A stretch of DNA of 64,000 nt from Allacma fusca. Lineage: Eukaryota; Arthropoda; Collembola; Symphypleona; Sminthuridae. Location: assembly GCA_947179485.1 (NCBI GenBank), contig OX359245.1, forward strand, positions 37,807,067-37,871,066, written 5' to 3'. The notes below the pieces were generated by a model. The model saw only the letters and a list, made by a program, of their open reading frames with translations. It was not told the DNA's origin and did not search any database. Shown one piece after another: positions 5,819-62,996 of the stretch (position 1 is the first letter of the stretch; each line of letters begins with the position of its first letter). Made by a program: the position numbers and the translations under genes.

Positions 5819-5861
5819 GCTATCCTTGCCACTAGATCACAGGGGAAAAATAATTCTTTCC
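5819..5861 (-). repeat. Single tRNA-Glu 5'-half-like box
   Basis: On the minus strand 5846-5819 reads TCCCCTGTGATCTAGTGG then CAAGGATAGC, the first 28 bases of tRNA-Glu with a few changes. The AT-rich upstream block AAATAATT is present on its 5' side (plus 5847-5861), as in the other copies. No tRNA 3' half follows. It sits about 60 bp beyond the end of the 150-bp satellite. Confidence 0.75.
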
Positions 5862-6760
5862 GAGGCTAAATGCTCTATAAGGAGACATTATTGGACAAGT
5901 TTCAAAGGGCCAAAAGTACCTTACTTGCGAGACTTGTGAGGGAAAGTCGTTGTCGGAATTGTATACAAGGAGTCCCGTTATAGAAGTTTGGAGGGAATGT
6001 GTGGCTTTTACAGAGATCGCTCCTTGTCCTATTAAACGTACATTATGGGTCTGGTCGCACTGCCTTTGCTCCAGCATGGGTCGTACATACATATGTACAT
6101 ATATACTAATGCAATTGTATATTTACACATGCAGTGCTGTTAGCATGTACTTCCCTGTAATGGACTTAATACATTACTTCCTCCCAGACTCTATCACCTT
6201 AAAGTAATGCAATTTCCCAGGGATGTACCTCCCATGCATTTTAAAGGGGGAGACAGTGCCCATGTAAATAAATGACCGGCGATGGGGAAAGGAGGAAAAA
6301 TGAGACAGGAATGGGTTTTAAATGCAAAGGAGGTGCAAGACCTCCCGAGAAAATAAACGCCTCGCTTTGCATAAAAGTCTTGCTCCAATTTCCCCTTTTT
6401 ATTTTCATTTTCCCAAGATTGTTTTTTTTTCTTTTGGAAAGGGGGAAAGGGTGCGGCGGGAAATTTCAAAGCGGAAAAAAATATGAGCGTGGAGAAGACG
6501 AAGAAAGGAACGTTTCATGTTTCTGTACCAGAAATCCGCCCTTTGAGAGGATTGCACTTTTAGAGTATACCTGGAAATAGAGCGGTTAATAGTTCGAGGC
6601 TAATTTATATTTCCGATGCAGGGTTTCGGTCGGAGGATTGAAAATCTTCGAGTAGGAACTCAAAGTTGACTTGAATTTTCGAGTGACACTTCAGTAATGG
6701 GAAATTAGGGGATCTTTTTGACATATGTGAATTTTTGTGTTTACAGATAAGATTTTAAAT
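5862..6760. other. Intergenic DNA, no gene seen
   Basis: Contains short AT/AC microsatellites near 6080-6130 and a purine-rich stretch around 6270-6500. The open frames of up to 102 codons are low complexity. No supported gene. Confidence 0.45.
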
Positions 6761-11160: not shown

Positions 11161-12050
11161 TACTTTGGATAATTAGCTATCCTTGCCACTAGATCACATG
11201 GGGAAAATAATTCTTGCAAACATTTCCAAGCCATTGGCTAATCCTTGTACTCAGGTGTTCCAGTTACAACCTGCATTCTAAAACCACCTGATTTCTCATT
11301 TCAGATTACCCCGAGTTATGTACTGTAACGAATATTTTATTTCAGCTGTTTTGTATCCAGCTTTTGTTAATGGAACTGAAAGAGCAGCTATCCTTGCCAC
11401 TAGATCACATGGGAAAACATTTAAATAATTATTTCAACATGTTAAGCTCCTTGGTTGTACTCGAAAGTCTTATTTTAAAAAACAAAAGCAGCTAAAGCAC
11501 AGGCTTATTTTCAGCAGGTATTAGCTTGTGCTGAAAAATCCTTCAAATCAAGGATACTCCGTTAACTTGATTGGTCGATTTGGTCCTGGCCTTCAAAACC
11601 TGTATCATTTCAATACATAATAGTTTCAAAAAGTACAACAGAACTGGAATTCGTTTTAACGTTTTGCTAATGCCAGGTACTAGCTCAAAATAGAAATCAA
11701 CAACCAAGATTTTTGAATCGTTTTCAAAGTAATTACATTAAACCTGAATCATTAATTTGCTCATCCGAACATTTTGACAAAGAATGAGCGCGGGTATCCT
11801 CGCCACTAGATCACACGGGAAAAATAATTATTTAAGAATCTTGAGCTATTCTGTAAACTTGCTCCAACTTAATACTTAATCAAATCTTTATCAGGAACGA
11901 ATCCATTCCAAGTTTTGGCGCCTGTGAAACAAAGTACTGGAAACCTAAATCATTAATTTGTACATACATTCAAACCGCAGTTCAAAGATTAAGGAGCTAT
12001 CCTTGCCACTAGATCACATGGGAAAAATATTCATCTAAGAAAGTTGAGCT
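11161..12050 (-). repeat. Array of tRNA-Glu 5'-half-like boxes in a register of about 203 bp
   Basis: Four boxes on the minus strand at 11176-11204, 11387-11414, 11793-11820 and 11996-12023. Their starts are 211, 406 and 203 bp apart, so one box near 11590 seems lost or decayed. Each reads TCCCATGTGATCTAGTGG then CAAGGATAGC, or one to three changes from it. That is tRNA-Glu bases 1-28 as I recall them, 24 of 28 identical. The block AATAATTATT or a variant lies just upstream on the minus strand. Spacers are mostly diverged, but AAATTAATGATT follows the last two boxes at a similar distance. Those two also have a B-box-like word where tRNA would have it: GTTCGGAT near 11763-11770 and GGTTTGAATG at 11968-11977. 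No acceptor 3' strand closes the fold, so these are not intact tRNA genes. Confidence 0.85.
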
Positions 12051-21967: not shown

Positions 21968-24900
21968 CTAAATATGGATGGCCAAATGTCGATTGGGGTT
22001 CCCACTGCTACTGCTCCCACTATTCCCCCCCACGTTCGGATGTCTCTGAGGTCTTCGTCCACTCCCCCCTCCGCCGCCATTGTTATTGCCATGCACAGCA
22101 TTGAGGTTATTGAGGGGGGTGGTCATGGTCGTTCCATTACTCAAGGGGTGGTAGTGGGAGTTTGGGGGGTGGGAGGGGGCGGGGGGTGGGGGTGAGTGGT
22201 TATGATGGTGGATGATTGTAGTGGGGGGTGGAGGGGGTGGGGGACCTTGACTACTGCTCCGCATCGTCATAACTCCTCCATGGTGGGGGGAATTACTCAT
22301 CCGGACATGGACCCCCCTAGATAGGGGTAATTTAGTCTTGACATCTGGCAGGGCAAACCGGAGCTTGGGCCAGAAGCGCTTATCCTCACAATTGAGGTAA
22401 GTGTGGTTTTTGAGGTAAAGCCGGATATCAGGGTCCAAATCCTTGCTAGGGAGGTCCCCAAGAAGAATTATTATCACTTTGCGGTTCCGGTCCTTGAGCA
22501 CCGAATGATGAGCGGATTTTACGTCCGTCCGGCTCCATTCGCCTTCAAAAATAAAAAGTTTGTTTTTACAAAAACATATGTACAAAGTAGAATTTCATGT
22601 TGCCCCAAAAAATTAAACTTGTCGCATAAAAAATTTCCGGACCAAATTCAAGTAAAATTTTTGCGCCTGAATTTGCTAAAATTTGGGTTAACAATTGATG
22701 CAACACTTGGGCAAACACTTTTGTATACAAATTTATGTAAAATTCGGGCAAACATTTGTATACAAATTTATGTAAAATTTGGGCAAACATTTGTATACAA
22801 ATTTATGTAAAATTTGGGCAAACATTTGTATACAAATTTATGTAAAATTTGGGCAAACATTTGTATACAAATTTATGTAAAATTTGGGCAAACACTTTTG
22901 TCTAAACATTTCTGTAAAATTTGGGCAAACACTTTTGTCTAAACATTTCTGTAAAATTTGGGCAAACAATTTTGTATAAACATTTCTGTAAAATTTGGGC
23001 AAACAATTTTGTATAAACATTTCTGTAAAATTTGGGCAAACAATTTTGTATAAACATTTCTGTAAAATTTGGGCAAACACTTTTGTATAAAAATTTATGT
23101 AAAATTCGGGACAAAATTTCTGCAAATATTGGTCAAAAATGTCGATCTAAATATGTAAAATTTGGGCAAAAATGTCGATCTAAAAATGTCTGCAAGATTT
23201 GGTCTCAGAATTGGGTCAAAATTGTTCAAATTCTCAGATTGAGGAAAATTGTTGGGAAATAATTAAAAATGGCTTACCTTTGAGGAAATGATGAGACAAC
23301 ACGAGCACGGTCCTTTTTGAGGCCTCACTGGCTTGGACAATTGTGTCCGCCAAATAAGTTCCTCCAGTAGGGAGATCCCTGTATCTTAAGCACAATCTGT
23401 AGGGAGGATCATGTCGTTCCAACTCTGCAGCCAAAACTTGTCTAACCCAAGCCTCATCCTTAGAACTGTAGGAGACGAAAGCATCAAAAAGTTTGTCCCT
23501 CTCGGTCGGAGCTTCACTACAAGTTCCCAGACGGAGTCCACAATGGGCATGAACCCACACCTTCAGACTCTGCCTCCAGAAATAACCAATAACGGAGAAA
23601 ATGGTAAGGAGGGTCAAGACACCCAAAGCGGTCACTATGACCCATAAATAGTCCTCATGACCCTTCTGGGTCTCACGCACACTCAAGTCCGTGCTTTGCG
23701 AACACCGGGGATTCCTCTCATCGAAGATTTTGACGACCACCAACTCCGAACTATTTTTCTGGTCGATGCACTTGATTTGACCCAGGTCAAAAATTTTGGC
23801 CCGATTTGAATCCAACCACTCCTTGAACGCAATGGTGAACAAGCACTCACAAGTAAACTCATTCCCATGTAAACTGACTTCCTGTAAATTCGGAGCAGCT
23901 TGGAACACTTGCCAGATCTTGAAATTAACAAAATTGTTCCCATGGAGAAAGATGACCCGAAGTTGGGTCAATCCTTCGAAGGTGGAATTATTGACCCAGG
24001 AAATACTATTTTGTTGTAAATACAGCTCTTGTAAATCCTCCAGCTCTTGGAACTCAAAGCCTTCCAAACGCTCCAAAAAATTGTTCTCCAAGTGTAATAC
24101 CCGTAGTTGACCCAGGCCATGGAAGGTCCGATTTTGAATGACCTCGATGTGTGACCCGTTCAAAAATAGTGAGCGTAAATTTTTTCGGCCGATGAAAGCA
24201 TGGGAGTCTAAACTCGGGAAAACATTCCCGTCCAAGTAGAGCTCCGTAACGTCCATGGGGATCTTCGGGATGATCGTTTGACCGTGACCGGAGCAATCCA
24301 CCAAATTATTCGACCAACCTTGGTCATGGTAACAGGAGCAATTTTGAGGGCAGGTCATTTCACAGTCACAAGCATCAAAGTCACAGCATGAGCACGCGGA
24401 GAAACAATGGGATTCATATTTGCACAAAAACTGGGTCGAAGATATGGTCAAGTATGACGTCGGGGCCAAATTACGGTCAAAGGTCAGGGAGCATTTGACC
24501 TCTTCCGAGTCCTGAATTATTGGATAATGACCGATCTCCATATTCATATTTTGGAGCCACTGCATCGTGCAATCGCAGGTCAGGGGGTTTTGACCCAAGA
24601 ATATTTCCGTAGGAGGGGTTTTATCCGGCGATAACCGCAGGGCATTTGGATCGATTTTGGTCAAATGATTAAAACTAAGGTCAACTCGGGTCAAATTCGG
24701 CTTCCGAAAGAAAGTATATGGTAAAATCGTATGGATTTGATTCTCACTCAAAATTAAATTCTCGATCGAATCCGGCAAATTCGAACTTCCGATCTCGAGG
24801 AGGGAGTTCTGGGACAAGTCTAAATTTCGGAGTCGCAATTGCTTTTCCAGATCTAAACAACTCCCTAAAGAGCGGATCTGATTGGAGCGCAAGTCCAGCC

Positions 24901-26692
24901 ATTGGAGCCGAGGCGGGAAATTTGAGTACTCCAGATGTTCCAAATTGTTCCCCGAGATATTGAGCCACAGCAAATTCGGGATGTTTTTAAACAGACCCTT
25001 GATATCCATTAATTTGTTAGTGTCCAAACGAATGGCTTGCAAATTCGGAGAATTGTCAAAAGCCCCCGGTTCCACCGATGTGATATTATTCTTCGCCAGG
25101 TTGATAATCTTCAACGAAGGGAGATCGCTAAAAGCCGATGCAGGCACATTTTTGATCAGATTATCGGTCAATCGGAGGCCGTACAAGCTCCCCAAGTGTT
25201 GATAGGAAGCGTTTCGAATATCCTGGATTTTGTTCTCCCCGAGGTCCAAAGTCTTTAACAAACTGAGTGTGGTCAGGGCTTCAGGAATCCGGTCAAGTTT
25301 GTTCCCGCTCAAATTCAGGTCAATCAAGTTCGAACAATTTTGGAAACTATTCGGAGCCACACTCGTGATCCCATTATTGTCCAAGGCCAGGAAACTTAGA
25401 ACAAAGAGCCCATTGCAAATAAACGGGTCAATGATTTTCAGGTCATTGTGGCTCACCAGAAGTGTATGTAAATTATACATCCCGCCAAAAGCGCCTTCAG
25501 CGATCACCGATATCTGGTTACTTTCCAGGTTCAAGACCTGAAGAGAGCTCAAGTCCCGGAACAGTATCGTGTCAACCTTGGTCAGGTCATTGTGAGCTAA
25601 ATTCAGGACAATCAGGCGGACCAATCCCCGGAATGTTTCGCCATTGACCCACTCCGTCGTCAGTTCATTATGGGCCAGGTCCAGCACCACCAGATGTTCC
25701 AAACCAGAGAACAATCCTGGAGCAATCACGCTCAAAGAATTATTCCCCAAATGGATTTCCTTCAAGGCCCGATTATCCTTAAAAAATTCGGGCGGGAGCG
25801 AGGTCAATTGGTTCCCGGCCAATCGGATGACCTTCAATTGGGTCAAACCCAGCAAGGCTCTTTCTGCAGCAATCGTTATAGAATTCAGGTCCAGGGTCAA
25901 TTCTTCAAGTTCCGTAACCGAAGCGAACGTTGCAGGAGGTAAAAGGCTAAAATGGTTTGAGCTCAAATCCAACACTCGAATATGGTTCGGGCAATTTTGA
26001 GGGTTAGTTGGGTCAAGGGGTAAAATCCCGATTGACCGGAAATCTCGAAGAAAACAAGAACTCAGGTTCAAATGGACCAGGGAAGGGAGGCAGAGGAAAT
26101 CATTTGGCAGGGAATTCAGACTAGTGCTAGAGAGGTCCAAAAAACGAAGATCACGTAATCCCCCGAAAACCCCGGATTTGATGTCCAGAGAAAATGCGCC
26201 AGGCCAGGTGAGACTAGTTCGGGCGTGAATGGTCAGATTTTGCAAGTATGGTAAATAACTTAAGGCGCCGGGTGTGATGCCCGTTATCCGGCAATTTTCC
26301 AGGCTGAGGGCACGCAGATTTGCTACGGCCATGAAAACCCCGTGGGATAGGACGTGACCACTTTTCGAATTTCCCGGGTCTTCTTCGGAAGTGGGAGCCC
26401 CAGAAATACATTGAACTGAGAGGGCTTTTGCATGCTCTGGACCTATCCCATACACTTCGTCCTCCACTATTAAACTATTGCCGGGCTCCGAGACACAATT
26501 TAAGCGCTCAATGTCCTGGTAGACACTCCACTGACACTGGGGCGGGTGAAGACCTTCGGTTCTAACTAAAAGCGCGGGAAATATTAAATCAAGGGTGAGC
26601 ACTTTCAACAGGGGAATTAGTATTGCTAAGGATTTGTAACGACTCCGGGTCTTAGTCTGCCTTTTCGGGCTGGAAGAATTATGGGAGGTCAT
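21968..26692 (-). CDS. Toll-family receptor, Toll-6/Toll-7/18-wheeler/Tollo class, two coding exons
   Basis: Coding exons are 26692-23278 and 22542-21968 (minus strand). Joined they give 3990 nt, a 1329-residue type I membrane receptor. The junction is AAAG|GTAAGC to GAAG|GC, phase 1, and keeps TIR homology running (HHFLK-G-EWSR). Start: the ATG has an in-frame stop 12 nt upstream (26704-26702). Layout: basic N-terminus and hydrophobic signal segment about 21-47; roughly twenty leucine-rich repeats to about 700; a cysteine-rich LRRCT/LRRNT pair about 704-803; a second LRR block; a second LRRCT about 944-997; transmembrane segment about 1015-1039; TIR domain about 1066-1205 with DAFVSYSSKDEAWV, RDLPTGG (BB loop) and the FW of box 3 at 1195-1196; then a 124-residue Pro/His/Gly/Ser-rich tail. 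Two LRR blocks around a central Cys cluster plus a long tail mark the long Toll class. In Drosophila those members act mostly in epithelial patterning. I cannot choose among the paralogues. Confidence 0.95.
22150..22245 (+). other. G-rich tract opposite the Toll C-terminal tail
   Basis: The plus strand, which is the template strand of the Toll gene, has many runs of three to six G (for example TGGGGGGTGGGAGGGGGCGG near 22162). This could form G-quadruplexes. It encodes the Pro/His-rich tail on the minus strand. Confidence 0.5.
22543..23277 (-). other. Toll intron, 735 bp
   Basis: GT-AG intron between the two coding exons: donor GTAAGC at 23277, acceptor ending TTTTTGAAG at 22543. The continuous frame on each side reads a few residues into the intron and then stops, which is how the ends were fixed. 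Most of it is minisatellite. Confidence 0.9.
22690..23115. repeat. 35/37-bp minisatellite inside the Toll intron
   Basis: About eleven units. The first half is a 35-bp unit GGGCAAACATTTGTATACAA plus ATTTATGTAAAATTT. The second half is a 37-bp unit with TTTTGTCTAAACATT or TTTTGTATAAACATT in the middle. The 35-bp unit contains ATTTGTATACAAAT, a perfect 14-bp palindrome. Confidence 0.9.
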
Positions 26693-28100
26693 TTTTTTAT
26701 TTCACGCCTTTTGCAAATTACTGCAATTCTGGCGGGGGAAATTCTCACTTCATTTTGTTTTCAGAGTTTTGCAGATTTAGGGAAGTTTTTCCGTTTTCAC
26801 AATTTGACCGGAAAAAAATTTGGGGCACTTTATAGGAAGGAAAATTTACACGTTTTTAATCACCTTGGGAATTTTCACAATCATTTTAGACAGCGCAGGG
26901 ATTCTCCAGAAAATTTCAAGGTTTTTTTGGGCTGGTTTGATAGATTTATGAAAAATTTGATTTTTGTAGAAAATTCTCGGGAAATTCCTGTCGTTTTGAT
27001 TATTTTTGTTAAATTTCGATAATTTTTCCTTCCTTGGTTGATTTCTGGGTTTTTTTCTGGATTTTTAGGGGCACTGTGAGAAATTTTGTTGAAATCTCTG
27101 GTATTTCTTGAAAATTTTGTCAAATTTGGGGGTATTGTGAGAAATTTCGGGAATTTGTCAAAGTTTTGTGAAAATTTGAGAAAAGCGGGGTGTCTTGAGA
27201 ATTTTAGGGAAATTCAAAGCTTCTGGATGAAATTTTCTTAAATTTTGTGATATTTTGAGTAATTTCCGTATCTTTCGCCCGTTTTTGAATTTTCGTCACT
27301 GTTTGTATCAGATTTTTGAAAATGTTCACAAAATTTCTTAATGCTTGGAAAATCTTGTTGGTTTTCGTATAATTCTCACAAAAACTTAGGTTTTGTTGTA
27401 ATTTCTTGTTTTGGAAAGATTTTGACAATTTTTAGCGAAACTTTGATCTTTTCGTATTTTAAGCTCAAATTTTGTCAATCTAATCAAATTCAAGAAAATT
27501 AAGTAAATTTTCCCCGAAAATTAATAACGTTTGACGAGTTTTGACACTCACGATCGATTTTTATTGTTGAATTTCGAAAAAACAAATTTTTTCATAAAAT
27601 CGTTAAATTTTCAAATTTTTCACCGCTAAGATTAATCAAAGTCGATTTTCAAGCACTGGTTCAAATTTTACACTGAAAACTAATTTGACTTCTGATTCTT
27701 GAATTTTGGTTTATGATACCTCAAAATGTGTATATTTTATTTTTGAGAAAATGTTTGTCCTGCACGTTTTCCCGTCAAACTTAGTTCTTTTTAGGCACGT
27801 TCACACAAAATTTTGAGGTTTTTTCGAAGAAAATGTGGAGGAACTTTCCAGTAGGAAGAGCGGAAACTTTTGCCGCATTTCCCGGCTCATTTGCCCACTT
27901 TCCGGTGTGAGTGTCTGAAGCAGTGGAAAATCCAGATTTTCACACCTCACTGTCCAGAAGTAATTCTCACATTAAAACCTCCGGCCAATTTTCGACAAAC
28001 TTGAGGGAAACGGAAAGGTCTCGGAAGTTCCATATTTGTTTGGAAACTTGGATTTCACCACATTTCCCCCCGAGAAGTTAGCGGCCTCAAAAAAATAAAC
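26693..28100. other. 5' flank of the Toll gene
   Basis: AT-rich, with G/T-rich phrases such as GAAATTT and GGGAATTT. It probably contains the Toll promoter and 5' UTR, but I could not fix a TATA box or initiator. Open frames are short and look random. Confidence 0.35.
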
Positions 28101-31100: not shown

Positions 31101-32130
31101 TCCCGTAATTGTATGGGTTTTTCTCGTGCTCTGGAATAATTCAGAAAGAAAAGGTATCGTGAGATTAGGAGTTGGGAAATGCTTAAGATGAATTATTGAG
31201 CTAAAGTCTATGGGGGAATTTGGAGGTAGAGGAAAGTGGAAGTGAGGGTGATCCTTTCGTATTATGAATTCCCAGAGAGTTCATATATATAAATTTACTG
31301 TAATCCATCCGAGAAGGAAAAGGAGCAAAAGTTACAGAGAAAAGCCCTGAGGGGGAATAGTCCTAGGAAAATATTTCTTTTACTAATTAAACACTTTGGA
31401 GAGCTCATGTATCCTTCACTGTCATCAATTCCCTAAATTTTTTCAGGAATAACCCCCTCCCCTATCTTTAAAAAAAACTTATATATATGAAAAGATTATA
31501 CACAGAAAGATTCTATACTCTTAAACCCCCCTACCCACCTCTCCATACATTACACACTCTGTCAAGTTAAACGTCAAAACTTCGTGTGTCATTTGTAATT
31601 ATTAATGCGCACACAGTTTTTCATGCGTGCATTCAAGCCCGCAATGTACACAAAATTCCCCATCCATTTACTTAAGCTCTGTCCTCCCCGAAATTAAATA
31701 ACATTCCTTGATGTTTAGCCCATGAATTTTTAATTTTTCCGCAAAGAACCTTTCAATTATTAATTTGAAACTTGGCAAAAATTGAAAAAACTTGAAATAC
31801 TCCATCCATGGTGAAAAGTACAAAACAATTAGGGTTAAAAATTGTGTAGTCGGATTTGTAGAGCAGAGGCTCAAAATTTTGAAGTTTGTCATATTTTTTA
31901 GATGCGAGTGACAACAGGTATTTTGAATTGTATTGATTGTAATGTAAAGGCATGTGGGAGTGCTTCATACATAATTGAGATCAGCGTAGATTCAACAATG
32001 GCTACACTCCAGCCATCTGTGGAGTTAAAATCACACTGTTTTTCAACAATCGGATTTGTATTCTGTCTCTTAGCTCTTTCTGTTATTGACTTACACAGTC
32101 AATTGTAAATTTTTTTTTCGGGTGCAATTA
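28101..32130. other. Intergenic DNA, no gene seen
   Basis: A perfect (CT)n tract lies near 29906-29928. Other parts are AT-rich. Open frames of up to 122 codons (minus strand, 29409-29777) have no domain. A 68-codon frame at 31902-32108 ends in a hydrophobic stretch but has nothing else to support it. Confidence 0.4.
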
Positions 32131-33230
32131 CTGCATTTAAATATCTATCCTTGCCACTAGATCACATGGGAAACATCCTTTTTATAATACGTACTGTTAA
32201 TCAATTATTTCAAAATGAAACTTCCTGAGAACACTGGATTGTTGAAGGCAGTAAGCTATCCTTGCCACTAGATCACATGGGAAATATAATTATTTCAGAT
32301 GAAGGAATTCAAAACTCTTTAAAATTGTAAATAGATTTATCTTATGCAAATGTAACGAAACTAAGCAACGGTTCAAACTTAGGCATAATCAGAAAATAAC
32401 ACGTTTGAGAACATGGAAGATATCCTCGCCACTAGATCACATGGGAAAAATAATAATTTCAAAGTTTGCAGTATCAAAACCTACAAGGTAACTCATTGAA
32501 CAACCAATGCTTACTGAAGTAGTTTTCAATCAAAATTAAAATAGTGCTCTTACAAATAGATCACATTAAAAATTCGATTCTTTTGGATTGAGCAAACCTC
32601 AGAAGATAGCTTTGTTGCTTCAGTAACTTGTAATTTGTTTCGAAGATTGTTTTGAAGACTAAGTTTCAGAAGGAATTGAGTTATCCTCGCCACTAGATCA
32701 CACGGGAAAAATAATTACTTCAAATTTCAAATGACTGAAATAGCAACTTGACTGGTCACATAGTCAAAAGAAATTAAGTTAGAATTTGTAATTCACAGAA
32801 TCCTATAGGAGTCATATGCCCTGGCCACTGAATCACATGGAAAAAATAATTACTTCAAATTTTCAAAGTCTGGACTAAACTCTTGAGTTATCACAGAGTC
32901 AATGCAAAGTGAACTTGAGTATTTTGCGTTCAGAAATTTACGGCAAGAGGAATAAGCTATCTTCGCCACTAGATCACATGGGAAAAATAATTATTTCACG
33001 GAAGCCATTGCTTTTATAGCTAACTGTTCTAAGATCACTGTAAATTGAATTAATAAATGTTAAGAGGAAATGAGCAAGGATTGCCACTAAGATACAACTC
33101 GCAAAGCTGGATATCACTGAATTAATGCAATTGTACTTGCTTTATTTTGAAATCAGGGAGTTTTAGAGGTAAGAATCTATCCTTGCCACTAGATCACATG
33201 GGACAAATAATTATTTTAGAGTTCTTGAAT
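32131..33230 (-). repeat. Array of nine tRNA-Glu 5'-half-like boxes separated by diverged spacers
   Basis: Clear boxes on the minus strand: 32144-32171, 32255-32282, 32419-32446, 32680-32707, 32814-32841, 32956-32983 and 33176-33203. Decayed boxes: about 32544-32571 and 33074-33100. Start-to-start distances run 111, 164, 125, 136, 134, 142, 118 and 102 bp. The full conserved block is about 44 bp. On the minus strand it reads TGAAATAATTATTTT, then TCCCATGTGATCTAGTGG, then CAAGGATAGC. The second and third parts match tRNA-Glu bases 1-28. No 3' half or closing acceptor strand follows. Spacers share little obvious sequence. This looks like an old tandem array under constraint at the box, or one repeatedly re-copied. 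Confidence 0.9.
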
Positions 33231-34080
33231 ATATCCAGCTTTGCGTAGGTACACAAACGTCATCCCGATTAAAGACAATTTTTTCCTGGACTACGCTCCA
33301 CGTTTTCCCCTCAGGATGAAGCTTATTATGTTAAGATAATTTTTATTGAAAATAATCATGTGAAATGATAAATGCTGTGATACTGTGAATATTACGTAAT
33401 ATGAAATGCTATTTCGGCTCTTAAGTTTATGCACTGATAATAAGGACTGTAATTTTCTGTTTAATTTCCTGAGATTTACATTGTACATAGGTTATTCAAG
33501 AGCCTGGAAACCACATTTTTGTGCTTGAAAGGAGACGACATTTGTGCTTGAGGAAAGAATGACTCAGGGCCAGACATGAAACAAGTCATATTTTTCTTGC
33601 TCTTTTCACACATTGTAAACCTGTCAGAAATGTGAAAGCTAAACAATGGCTTTGCCTCCCATCAACTCCTTCCTTCTCTCCTGGACTTCTCTGCAACAGA
33701 GATCTCTCGAGAGACTCTGAGGATATGGGGATGGAAACCATGGATTATTTACACAACGAGTTAAAAATTACAAATGTGGGCTATTTAATTACCTCACGAG
33801 GGAACTCTGCCTTTCGTTTGTATACATTTTGTAACATATTACCAGGGCACGTTAGAATACATACGGACGATTGTCTGTAAGCACTTCATACACAATTGTT
33901 ACAAACGGAAATACATATACGACAGAGCTCTGCTTGGGAACGGAGATTTGAGGGACCTGAACTCCCACTTGGAATGCACTTGAATTTTGAGCTGCTTTGG
34001 GACTCTTTAGTTTACCTGTTCATAATTGCTAAATTGAAGTGTCAAGGCTACTTGAAGATACATATTTTTATGCTCCTGGT
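33231..34080. other. Intergenic DNA, no gene seen
   Basis: Unique-looking sequence. Frames at 33632-33880 and 33896-34105 (82 and 69 codons) have no recognisable domain. Confidence 0.4.
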
Positions 34081-42290: not shown

Positions 42291-43866
42291 ACTCAAACGT
42301 TTTCAATATAGCAAAGTTATATCCAACGGAGTTGCTCCATCATCCCTAAATGACTGTAAGAATTATTTACATTCCAATTGAAGCCTTGTCTCCTCAAAGC
42401 TCCCAAGAACCCATGTTAACATAAGGGTATCGTATATGCTAACAATAGTAATTTTTCCATCTCATAGCTCTCTCAAGTTGATAATCACCCTCTGCTGAGG
42501 ACTCACACACAGCAGTCCCTCCTAGCTCCAGAACAGCTCTTATTTACACTTGAAACAGGGGGAAAAAACTCGTACAATACATTAACACTTGTCTCTTGAC
42601 ACTGTACAAATTCTAATGAAATCCTCAAATATTCCATTGTTAGAATTATTCCCACTGTAGATTTAATCCCTTGGAGTTACACCTTTTGCCTTGTTAACCC
42701 TTGCAAAAAAAAACAACAAAAATAAAACATTTCTTCTCAACTTTAGAAAATTATCCTAAAATATGCTTCTGAAAAAAAACAGCCCAATTGCAGAAAATTA
42801 TCGAAAAAATTCCCAATTCCAGAAAATCTCTGCATTTTAGCCCTGAACATCTGGTAAATTTTAGGATATTTTTCTGAGAAACACATGAAATTTTCAATTG
42901 AAAATATCCCAAGGAAATGGAAGAGTGAAGTTGGGCCTGAATACATTGAAAACACTTGCTGCTCCTGAGCAAAGGAACAATAACGATTTCTCCCAGGCTC
43001 TACACGTACTACGTACATACATAGTGCATACGTGCCAATGGCTCTGACCCTACCCGGCTCCTGATTTTGGATTCAAGTGACGGGAACTATTAGGGAAGGA
43101 ATGTTCGGGGCTTATTCCTCGGAAGGAGACAAATCTCACGTAACTCTTTCCCAATCCCTTGACTCCTGCTCATGCCCAAATTTTTATTGATAATGCTCCT
43201 CTCTGGTCTCTTCCCAGGGCTTTGTACTCCTCAGGACCTATTGTGTTTGTCCCATGGGCTCATGTGGCGCGGGAACTTAAATATCTCAAGAGTCGAATAT
43301 AGCTCTGGTGCTGACTGAGTTGACCCAAAAAAAAGAAACTCTCTCCGAAAACTCTGGTCAATAAAAGAACCAAAGGGGAGAAGTACAATGGAACAGCCTC
43401 CTATAGAGCGTCCATTAATAACTTCCTATAGGAATGATAGCGTATCACATTCTATACGAAACATATTCTAAGGACACTCTAAATGTCACAGGCATCCTTG
43501 GAGCTCAGAGTTGGAGGAAAAAAAATTGAAAAAATTGTTTCTTCCTGGAAAGCTCAACCTCTGCACAAGAACAACATTGAGCTTGTGATCTCTTTATAAA
43601 ACAAGGGATCTTATCCAAACTAATCTCCAAAGATGAATTTTTTAGAATTTCATTAGTACTAAGCTATAGTCACATGAAATAGCTGGCTAATGAATCAATT
43701 AAATTGTATAAATCTATTATCAAAGTATTTTTTGAGATTTGTCCTGGGATGATGTATAAACCCAAGGAACTTGTTCCCAGAGAACATGACACACTTGATT
43801 AGCACGCAAGAGTTTCCAGTAGCAAAATAACTTCACACTTTGAGAACCAGTTTAAGAATTAGCATT
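42291..43866. other. Intergenic DNA, no gene seen
   Basis: AT-rich and unique-looking. The frames of 91 and 73 codons at 42743-43018 overlap each other and have no domain. Confidence 0.4.
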
Positions 43867-44310
43867 TGAGATACTGGTCATTGGGATTGCGAGATTACTT
43901 CGGACTTGATAGTGTGACTGATAGTAATTACGCAAAATATTTAACGCTTGAAGATTTAAGTTGCAACTTGTCTTTTATTGAGGATTGATTTTATTTGCCG
44001 TGATCATCTAGTGGTTAGAACATTACTTGGAGATGGGTATTTTACACAAGCTGTAACTTGTGAATTTCTGAATTCAAAACGTAAGAGAAGAATTGGCAGC
44101 TGAGATACTGGTCATTGGGATTGGGAGATTACTTCGGACTTGATAGTGTGACTGATAATAATTACGCAAAGTATTTAACGCTTGAAGATTTAATTTGCAA
44201 CTTGTCTTTTTCAGGATTGATTGTATTTGCCGTGATCATCTAGTGGTTAGAACATTACTTTGAGATTGGTTTTTTATACAAGCTGCAACTTGTGAATTTC
44301 GGTGGTTAAA
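43867..44310 (+). repeat. Tandem duplication of about 233 bp, each copy with a tRNA-His 5'-half-like box
   Basis: TGAGATACTGGTCATTGGGA starts at 43867 and 44101, and the two copies stay highly similar for about 200 bp. Each holds a box, at 43997-44024 and 44229-44256, reading GCCGTGATCATCTAGTGG then TTAGAACATT. The first 25 bases match tRNA-His at 23 positions as I recall the gene. No anticodon arm, TΨC arm or 3' acceptor strand follows. The AT-rich upstream is TTTTATTT or TGTATTT. Confidence 0.9.
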
Positions 44311-45240
44311 ATGTGGAGTTCAGATGAGCCTGCCATATTTGTTGGTTGTGGAGAGGATTTCCAAGGTTGAGCGCCGAAGTTATGAAACTGAAGTTAAGCA
44401 AATTGTAAACATGTCATTTCACATGTGCATTGACGTTTTACTAAAATAAGGATTTCAGATAAAAGTTATTTGTTTTAACTGCTGTGAATACTATGCTTTA
44501 GCTAATGCTTACTGTACTAAACGTGATCTATCCTAAAAGGAGATAATTGTTAGGCATCACTCTAAACTTAGCTTCTGAAGAAGTTTGGTGCTAGTCTGGC
44601 TTTGTCTACGTTTACGTTCTCCGACGTTATATTCCCTTTGAATAAATTTTAAGTACAGTTGTGCTATTGAAACCAAATATGTATCTGTAGATGGAGTTTA
44701 TCGCGTTGCGCTGAGTTATTTGACAAAAAACAGTTTCATTAAATAACGGTCAATAGGGATTTGTAGCAAAATCAATTTCAGAGAGTTCTGGTTTCCTTGA
44801 AATGCGATATAGTCAATAAGAAACTGTTAACAATTATTATTGTGTATATATTTAATGGCATGCTGGATCATTCAGTGTTGTTTTTAGTGGGGTTGATGTA
44901 ACTTAGTGGCGAAATTAGGATATTAGAAGGGACTTTTGTTGATATTTTTTAAGTTTTTTACACTGTGTATAGTAAAGTGCTTTTTGAGGGGTAATCCTTT
45001 GGAGGCGATGGAATCCCAAATATTTTCGGAAGAATGGGCTCAGAATTCAAAGTATTTTCACGAAATGTTCCACTCTTGGAATTCTAAGTGGATTCTATAA
45101 GGCATGTGTATGGAATCTATGGTGTATTGTAGGAGGTATCATTTTTTTCCTTTCTTGCTTTTTTCCTGTCAACTTGGGTATAAATTTGCAGGGTACAAAA
45201 ATTAATGTTTTTATAAAATTTCAAAATCTGCTTTATTTGG
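44311..45240. other. Intergenic DNA, possible decayed box copies
   Basis: ACGTGATCTATCC near 44521 and GATGTAACTTAGTGGCGAAA near 44894 resemble the upstream boxes weakly and may be decayed copies. Otherwise nothing seen. Confidence 0.3.
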
Positions 45241-57540: not shown

Positions 57541-58900
57541 TTTATGAATTCGGACCAAATCTTTCCCGTTTTTGAACCAATTTCCGAAATTTTTAAAGTA
57601 AAACGCCCTTTTCAAGTTTTAAAATGGAATCTTACCCAACGAATAATATTTTCCTGCATTTTCAAACAAAAATTATAATTCTGCCTTGTCGACCCAAAGT
57701 GCCCCCAACTATTTCAGCTTTCAGGGTAATTTAAAGAGTGTCATGCATTAGATCCGAAATAGCATTTAATAACACCCGTGTTCACAACTCAGAAGCAAAC
57801 CATACATACGAAAATGTAATGTATGTAAGTATAATGCCCTACACCGAGAGCAAAGGCCTTTTGACTACTCCCAGAGATGACATTAGTCCTTCCTCAGACC
57901 TGCGGGCAAAATCCGCCGCTGTTGTTATTTAGACTTAATAAAATGAGACTCTCCCCAGTCCCATCAAAAACTTTCCCACTTAATTCCAGTTTAGGAGACA
58001 AAATCCACTGTCACTCGGAGCAGGGACCAATATTCAATTTCCAGCGGATTAGTGCTCATGAAACCACACGATTACGAATGGATTTCTAGGCTTGAGAAAT
58101 GAAATCCGGAATTTTGTCAGCACTTCTGAATCCCCCTCCTCCCCTCAAAAAAAAGATTTATAATTGCCCCTTAACAAATGCTGACTTCAGGCTTATGATC
58201 CTTCCCAGAAAAGAGAATTGTGAGGACGATTAAGTATTTACGCGAGCGAGTCATTCCAAAGGACAGAGTCACATTATAGAGGCTAGTTAATAAATGCATG
58301 GTTTAAAAAAGTAAGGATGTACGTCCATGGTGTCCTACGAGGCTGTCAGGCTGGACGTGCTCGTACAGTCTGATTGAGTGGAATGAGAGAGAGAGAGGAG
58401 CGCCCGAGGGAGAGGAGCTAAGGAGCTTGTTGGGAAGTTAAAGGGATTAGAGCTAATCTCTCATTTTCCTATCAAGCCACACTTCGTACTCCGTCTTCCC
58501 ATTTACATGCTCAACTTCGTATGTAACATCCAGTCACTGGAAGCCACTCCACTCCTCACCCACTCTTTAGCACTCTTCTCCTCAATCTCCCAAACTTTTC
58601 CCATTTCCTTTCTCATAAGCTACTGGGATGTGGCTATTTCCAAAAGCTTACAGCCTGTCATAACGTTTCATGCGATATATGCACCAGGCAAGAAGAAGCT
58701 CAGGTGGGGAATTCTCCTTGAGCATGGTCATCGTTGGGACTCTCAAATAATGGCGCGGGAGGATTCAAACCGTTCAATCCAAGACGTTTCCAGGATTTGA
58801 ATCCCACTTTCAATGCTCATTCCCACTTGAATGTGAGGGGCTCAGTAGCTCAGAAAGCACAACGACTCTACTTAACTTTTATTCTTGGGAATGACTGTAA
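57541..58900. other. Intergenic DNA, no gene seen
   Basis: A GA tract lies near 58386-58400. The plus frame 58507-58800 (97 codons) has no recognisable domain. Confidence 0.4.
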
Positions 58901-59445
58901 TTTATTTTTTATGCCGTGATCATCTAGTGGTTAGAACATTCCTGGATTTTCAATCCTGATTATTTATTAGGAGCTCTTAGAAAATACTTGCTCATTGGAC
59001 GTTACGCACACTTCCGAGCTTTAAGATTGGATTCAAAGCTGATGCTCACAATTCTATTTCAGCTGAATTTGGGTGTACCAGTTTGCCGCACAATTCAGAT
59101 AAATAACTCATAAGCTGCTCAAACCGTACGAATTTTTGCCGTGATCATCTAGTGGTTAGAACAATTATCAGAAACAACATGTGGTCTAGACTGTAAACGC
59201 TGCGTAAGCATTCGGATCTCCAGGAACTGTTGTTATACGTTCTAAGGAAAGAATTCCTGAGAAGGAAATTTATTTCGGGGGATCACCCCGTGTTTCGGAT
59301 ATCTAAGAAATAGGGGATCCTAAACGATACAAACGTTGATTACCCATGTCGATCTCCTGTAAGTATTTGAAATTCTTTGGGAGGACAATGAGTGGTTCTG
59401 GTGAATTGTGTTTGCTGGGATCATCTAGTGGTTATAGAACTTAAA
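58901..59445 (+). repeat. Three tRNA-His 5'-half-like boxes, 225-276 bp apart
   Basis: Boxes at 58913-58940, 59138-59165 and 59414-59442. The first two read GCCGTGATCATCTAGTGG then TTAGAAC. The third is GCTGGGATCATCTAGTGG then TTATAGAAC, with a two-base insertion. A T-rich run precedes each one. Spacers look unrelated. No tRNA 3' half is present after any box. Confidence 0.88.
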
Positions 59446-62728: not shown

Positions 62729-62770
62729 AGTTTTCTACCCACTAGATGATCACAGCGAAAATAAATGTTA
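62729..62770 (-). repeat. Single tRNA-His 5'-half-like box, inverted
   Basis: On the minus strand 62756-62729 reads GCTGTGATCATCTAGTGG then GTAGAAAA, preceded by the AT-rich TTTATTTTC. It is the only His-like copy on the minus strand. Confidence 0.75.
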
Positions 62771-62996
62771 CTACCACAGAGCTTCTTCATAACAATTTTT
62801 AAATTATCACAATATTTCCAAGCGACTCTCATGAGCTCGGCGTACTGTATGTAAATTGAGCTTGAGCAAAGTCAATGAGTTGCTGATGCATATGTAAAAC
62901 ATTACAGGTGTAAAATGATAGGGCAGGAAAGGAGCAGAGACGTGAGCAAGAGAGCAGAGGCACATTGAGCCATTTCCTTGGCTCAGTAGACACTGC

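Follow-up and report, generated by a model that had tools for sequence, protein, structure and literature searches.

Boxes resembling the 5' parts of tRNA-Glu and tRNA-His recur in drifting arrays of Allacma fusca and may act as recognition modules

The stretch of Allacma fusca DNA analysed here (64,000 nucleotides, in the following the window) carries two families of boxes that resemble the 5' part of a tRNA, one of Glu type and one of His type. These boxes are real and non-random, and the phenomenon, with its two families, is wider than the array first described. A protein-binding or copying role fits the data better than a normal tRNA or a mobile element. Our preferred reading, held tentatively, is that tRNA-derived modules have persisted in old arrays subject to drift, where they most likely serve as putative protein-binding sites.

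Results

An initial annotation had placed nine copies of a tRNA-Glu-like box on the minus strand at 32144-33203, spaced by 102-164 bp. Our recount agrees with this: seven copies, one of which (32842) is partly decayed, and two strongly decayed ones are found in the main array at 32144-33220. The Glu-type box, TCCCATGTGATCTAGTGGCAAGGATAGC, is not confined to this array at 32.1-33.2 kb. Five further copies that the annotation had missed, four at 11.2-12.0 kb (12023, 11820, 11414, 11203) and one at 5.8 kb (5846), match the consensus at 25-28/28 positions, and all Glu copies lie on the minus strand. Hereby, copies were scored as matches to a 28-base consensus, with the first base of the box as coordinate; 11/12 Glu copies reach 25-28/28.

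Glu-type units and copies:
33176..33220 (-), AT block and box, first base 33203, 27/28
33069..33096 (-), strongly decayed copy, start about 33096, only ATCTTAGTGGCAA recognisable, one-base shift
32956..33000 (-), unit, first base 32983, 26/28
32815..32859 (-), unit, first base 32842, box partly decayed (20/28), AT block intact
32680..32724 (-), unit, first base 32707, 25/28, variant with G5 and G20
32543..32570 (-), strongly decayed copy, first base 32570, 17/28
32419..32463 (-), unit, first base 32446, 26/28
32255..32299 (-), unit, first base 32282, 28/28
32144..32188 (-), unit, first base 32171, 27/28, AT block altered
11996..12040 (-), unit, first base 12023, 28/28
11793..11837 (-), unit, first base 11820, variant with G5 and G20
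11387..11436 (-), unit, first base 11414, 28/28, AT block lying about 7 bases farther upstream
11176..11220 (-), unit, first base 11203
5819..5863 (-), single unit, first base 5846

When 10-base words occurring at least four times, mostly at least 70 bp apart, were counted, words of the Glu box came out on top of the best 60, mixed with minisatellite words and words of the His family. A profile search with filters switched off recovered the 12 Glu copies and no further copy (next match at E 0.08); since the profile was built from these same 12 copies, the search is informative only for the absence of others. The Glu box has no match in the viral_contigs and genome_contigs collections, which contain no animal genomes, so that this result carries little weight.

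Also missed by the annotation was the second family, which was found via 13-base words. Its box, GCCGTGATCATCTAGTGGTTAGAACATT, occurs in six copies at 44.0-62.8 kb and has no match in the viral_contigs collection, again of little weight as that collection is without animal genomes.

His-type units:
43980..44024 (+), first base 43997
44212..44256 (+), first base 44229, tandem duplicate of 43997, flanks also alike
58896..58940 (+), first base 58913
59121..59165 (+), first base 59138
59397..59441 (+), first base 59414, more diverged (22/28)
62729..62773 (-), first base 62756, more diverged (24/28)

We take the Glu box to be the 5' part of tRNA-Glu and GCCGTGATCATCTAGTGGTTAGAACATT to be that of tRNA-His, the references being a Drosophila sequence, not this organism's own, and an animal sequence, respectively. 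The equation of the Glu box with bases 1-28 of tRNA-Glu, as made in the annotation, stands: four of the 12 copies agree with the fly tRNA at 24-25 of these positions and seven at 23, and over bases 1-26 the agreement amounts to 22-23/26 in 11/12 copies and 18/26 in the twelfth. Four His copies match tRNA-His bases 1-26 at 23/26 positions, the other two at 20 and 18. By chance, the window would be expected to hold about 3e-6 places with at least 24/28 matches to tRNA-Glu and about 5e-7 with 23/26 to tRNA-His, each figure referring to one named tRNA only. In a screen of 24 tRNA sequences (Leu incomplete), each represented by three 26-base parts on both strands, more than 20/26 was reached for Glu and His only; beyond their 5' parts and the cross-matches to human Glu and Gly-TCC, the best values were 18-19/26.

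The 3' half of the tRNA is absent, as the annotation had stated. In the whole window ARAGORN detects no tRNA gene and Rfam yields no match of any kind at the gathering threshold; in a relaxed Rfam search, five weak matches, none of them a tRNA, appear at 31600-33800 and none at 43800-44500. A functional full or split tRNA was rejected, no cloverleaf being recognised by either program. On neither strand of the window do the 3' parts of the 24 tRNAs reach 20/26 (at most 19/26), and for tRNA-His even 18/26 is not attained.

SINEs commonly carry heads derived from tRNAs, and the boxes might be what is left of a tRNA-headed retroelement (SINE or Helenus-type TRIM) whose head alone can still be recognised. 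Like in tRNA-derived SINEs, the 5' end corresponds to a tRNA 5' part; unlike in these, the units lack a convincing B box, a 3' tRNA half and a common body past the head, and they lie in head-to-tail clusters. Moreover, heads that mostly score 25-28/28 stand beside bodies at or just above chance. Helenus LTRs with tRNA-like sequence, present in some wasps, provide a precedent for such a sequence within a repeat (PMC10886601); Helenus LTRs are reported to keep boxes A and B, whereas here base 10 of the A box is changed. In 13/14 Glu units no B box lies within 200 bases, and the remaining unit has one match with two mismatches. The class of tRNA-derived SINEs was rejected for want of a common body and that of Helenus TRIMs for want of a convincing LTR box B in the Glu units; remnants of either, which would also have to account for the lack of target-site duplications above chance, appear unlikely.

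In both families the similarity sets in at tRNA base 1 and fades past base 26-28 or so. Directly upstream lies a T-rich run, the T fraction at -8..-1 being 0.67 in the Glu and 0.77 in the His family as compared to 0.32 at random; neither value was reached in 5000 random sets. Behind this run the families have a core in common, ATCTAGTGG. The 12 Glu boxes are followed by a pyrimidine-rich stretch at +29 to +38 (fraction 0.77; 0/5000 random sets as high). The Glu box may continue into the anticodon arm, where the signal is weak: bases 29-40 agree with fly tRNA-Glu at 47/144 positions vs 34.4 expected (p 0.012; gapped p 0.02), and the comparison with human tRNA-Glu yields p 0.24 and 0.19; for bases 29-70, p is 0.31.

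Animal tRNAs typically carry a G at position 10, and all 18 copies of the two families (18/18) have an A. In addition, base 7 is G and base 20 is not T in 12/12 Glu copies, which sets them apart from fly tRNA-Glu. The presence of the same changes in every Glu copy suggests that a changed master was amplified, not fresh tRNA. Should A10 also occur in the tRNA-Glu and tRNA-His genes of the organism itself, the change common to the two families would carry no meaning.

Independent retroposition of truncated tRNAs would likewise leave tRNA 5' parts only, and such retrocopies ending in loops, the tailless tRNA retropseudogenes, are known in mammals (PMC5322556). Compared to these, the present copies differ by their common changed master, their AT lead and the lack of target-site duplications above chance; the shared non-tRNA master would count for less only if the organism's own tRNAs carry the changes. 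The longest direct repeats around the 18 copies measure 4-8 bases (mean 5.7 vs 6.1 at random places), and 18/18 copies fall inside the random range, itself widened by minisatellites. With no target-site duplication above chance around the truncated tRNA this class was rejected, and an origin by independent retroposition is most improbable.

As one possibility, the annotation had further named an A-box-based Pol III element. The segment from -17 to +28 is approximately where TFIIIB contacts and an A box would lie, and an upstream AT block plus A box might drive short, unlike transcripts, making the units Pol III-related promoters or TFIIIC sites. In a Pol III type 2 promoter, an A box bearing G10 is combined with a B box. 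Here, G10 is replaced throughout, a convincing B box is missing in the Glu units, and the first T4 run lies at no common distance, namely 51-282 bases from the Glu box start (12 copies) and 35, 42, 44 and 121 bases in 4/6 His copies, with none within 400 bases in the other two. The proposal was consequently not upheld; a type 2 promoter was rejected, and Pol III-related promoters or TFIIIC sites more generally are distinctly unlikely.

tRNA-Glu and tRNA-His frequently give rise to abundant 5' halves, the box covers just the tRNA 5' part, and base 10 is changed in both families. These points would suit a role at the RNA level, in which plus-strand transcripts of the Glu arrays are antisense decoys of 5' tRNA halves, or sense copies yield RNAs resembling tRNA halves; a G-U wobble at the guide cleavage site would then follow from the change at base 10. 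However, base 5, inside the seed, varies in 3/12 Glu copies while bases 10-18 hardly vary, and no RNA fold signal emerged when the tRNA-sense strand of 14 Glu units was folded at four lengths each (lowest z among the 56 foldings, -1.15). In the D stem, A10 of the Glu consensus can pair with T25, and the changes at 10 and 23 in the His family break the stem, which favours a linear signal and, together with the absent fold signal in the Glu units, argues against a kept RNA fold. We consider a role at the RNA level very unlikely.

To compare the box with its surroundings, pairwise identities were determined. Within the Glu box, the ungapped mean (66 pairs) is 0.91 for bases 1-9, 0.96 for bases 10-18 and 0.79 for bases 19-28. 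The upstream AT block, correctly described in the annotation as common to the copies, shows 0.80 at -8..-1 and 0.57 at -17..-9 (12 copies; random 0.26-0.27). Outside, identity drops to 0.35 at +28..+39 and 0.28-0.30 beyond -17 and +40 (0.30 at +40..+89), so that the edges are sharp at about -17 and +28. In the His family (15 pairs), the three box segments stand at 0.90, 1.00 and 0.77 and the two segments upstream of it at 0.64 and 0.33, with 0.27-0.34 elsewhere; in both families tRNA positions 10-18 are thus the best-kept stretch. Gapped alignment of the 66 Glu pairs gives 0.887 for the box and 0.638 and 0.626 for the downstream and upstream flanks (random DNA 0.62 and 0.61), which bears out the claim that boxes are far more alike than spacers. 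The claim that the spacers themselves show almost no similarity holds for most pairs, which are at or just above chance, but not for a few neighbours with alignable flanks.

Among the 190 pairs of 20 copies, flank homology with p<0.01 is seen in 5 downstream and 6 upstream comparisons, where 1.9 are expected. It is clearest for 43997/44229, a duplication of 232 bp in which the copies resemble each other on either side, followed by 33203/32983, 12023/11820, 32983/32842 and 32842/32707. This similarity among some neighbouring units indicates that the arrays arose at least in part by tandem duplication. The notion of an old tandem array is therefore retained as a partly tandem origin, with flank homology limited to some pairs.

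Box and spacer divergence once aligned, which the annotation had expected to differ, gives a mixed picture. In two alignable Glu pairs the box tends to be better kept (25/28 v 49/66, p 0.08; 25/28 v 47/65, p 0.06), whereas two pairs including the partly decayed 32842 show no difference (19/28 v 44/66; 19/28 v 64/88); flank values are inflated by the alignment, and the 64/88 flank includes the AT block. Furthermore, 3/9 units of the main array show partial or strong decay of the box, in one case beside an intact AT block, so that the constraint is not strict. On balance, the data favour a kept box over drifting spacers, though copying of the box alone may account for this as well, and selection on the Glu box appears plausible.

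Two units separated by 20 kb, 32707 and 11820, share the variant combination G5 and G20, suggesting exchange or block duplication between clusters. The box could itself be a copying junction, with units spreading by recombination or short-tract copying that is initiated or terminated within the box and AT tract; it would then be alike since every new unit is seeded by it, and would have no cellular role. In line with this, similarity ends sharply at the box edges in most pairs, AT tract and box occur together in units, and variants are common to distant clusters. A precedent is found at the monomer junctions of Meloidogyne satellites, where Box 1 and an A/T/C-tract Box 2 are located (PMC3694981). 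Yet a copying junction gives no reason why the 5' parts of two different tRNAs, with identical ends, should have been chosen, and the alignment continues past the box in the few pairs with homologous flanks. We regard it as the main rival, possible though somewhat unlikely.

Further classes were considered. The CTCF consensus, CCASYAGRKGGCRS, includes GGC and was taken into account since A10 yields its MYCTRSTGG part. Eleven of the 12 Glu boxes and one His box score 11-12/14; a CTCF site was nevertheless rejected, given the lack of GGC and a score of 11 at 28 further places of the window. By eye, splice acceptors and spliced leaders were set aside as well. A tandem satellite with a conserved box agrees with the observations, as head-to-tail units, a conserved segment and a divergent remainder are all found. 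Among the matches listed for the open literature there is no element of such a tRNA-5'-part form, which is weak evidence of novelty.

The window has a GC content of 36.7% and is rich in minisatellites (80 rows, some overlapping), several of which have TTGACC/GGTCAA or AAATTT cores; their density is high. One clear coding stretch, at 23234-26701 on the minus strand, encodes a long LRR protein and the first part of a TIR domain. The open reading frame at 21968-22594 (minus strand) by eye resembles the remaining Toll TIR domain, and a Pfam search with it returned no match. Together, the two would form a Toll-type LRR-TIR gene with an apparently intron-split TIR domain; the top sequence match among solved chains is 8suf, named TIR domain-containing protein. 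Besides, a short box GCATCGGT(T), behind which an AATTTA-like stretch lies at about 8-14 bases, repeats with a spacing of 143-298 bp and mostly unlike spacers; GCATCGG occurs 14 times in the window on both strands vs about 2.5 expected from base shuffles. Another sequence, GCATCGGAAA, has six copies across 4.4 kb, partly inside a degenerate tandem repeat. A perfect 15-bp inverted repeat, CGCAAAGCTGGATAT, at 33100-33114 and 33231-33245 (116 bp apart) flanks the first Glu-type box, and AAAGCTGGATA is also found 50 bp downstream of box start 11414.

Positions of the two short sequences:
4750, 5048, 5201, 5344 (-), GCATCGGT(T) box, first base of GCATCGG
4586, 5626, 8718, 8822, 8961 (+) and 6619 (-), copies of GCATCGGAAA

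Discussion

In our preferred reading, the module would comprise about 45 bp, made up of a T-rich stretch and a descendant of the first 26-28 or so bases of a tRNA gene. A single module of either type, Glu and His, would have been amplified once position 10 of the tRNA had changed, through tandem duplication inside clusters and, more rarely, moves between them; the spacers would have drifted afterwards. The module would have stayed nearly unchanged most likely because a putative DNA-binding protein recognises it by way of the common core and the T-rich run. Each array would then act as a cluster of like putative binding sites and might have a boundary or regulatory role.

This binding-module reading draws on a box identity far above that of the flanks with sharp edges, on two tRNA origins that have the same ends, T-rich lead and base 10, and on the particular conservation of positions 10-18. 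The amplified changed master, the lacking Glu fold signal, the broken D stem of the His box and the homologous flanks of some neighbours point in the same direction. Against it speaks that no box-vs-flank test reaches 0.05 in the four alignable pairs, that the core is mostly common to tRNA-Glu and tRNA-His anyway, leaving one parallel change only, and that a third of the main-array units are decayed. Moreover, the sharing of G5 and G20 suggests copying between clusters, which alone could keep the boxes alike.

A broader version is conceivable, in which elements of tRNA bases 1-26/28, so far of Glu and His type, with a T-rich tract ahead and base 10 changed, would serve as linear signals in arrays, either as putative protein sites or as decoys of 5' tRNA halves with the wobble at the cleavage site. 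We judge this version rather doubtful.

Among known systems, the boxes of Meloidogyne satellites are the nearest published pattern found. These satellites combine a conserved, CENP-B box-like Box 1 with an A/T/C-tract Box 2 in otherwise dissimilar monomers, and a role in rearrangement is proposed by its authors (PMC3694981). The arrays described here likewise join a short conserved box to an A/T-containing motif in otherwise nearly unrelated repeats; unlike in those satellites, the present box is tRNA-derived, comes in two families with irregular spacing and lies in small clusters scattered near a gene. How short arrays can be scattered is illustrated by Helentron-borne satellite-like arrays in oyster (PMC7492417). 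Helenus TRIMs and tailless retropseudogenes have a tRNA origin in common with the boxes, and those of their features that were tested did not hold here. As in homotypic binding-site clusters and insulator arrays, many copies of one long motif are found among free spacers, with the difference that the binding protein is putative here.

Selection on the boxes, if real, would make 5' tRNA parts a source of compact DNA signals, regulatory or structural, that is distinct from SINEs and complete tRNA genes. Agreeing in their ends and in base 10, the two families would then constitute a natural test of what is recognised. If, instead, the boxes are copying junctions, they would represent a satellite box of known origin.
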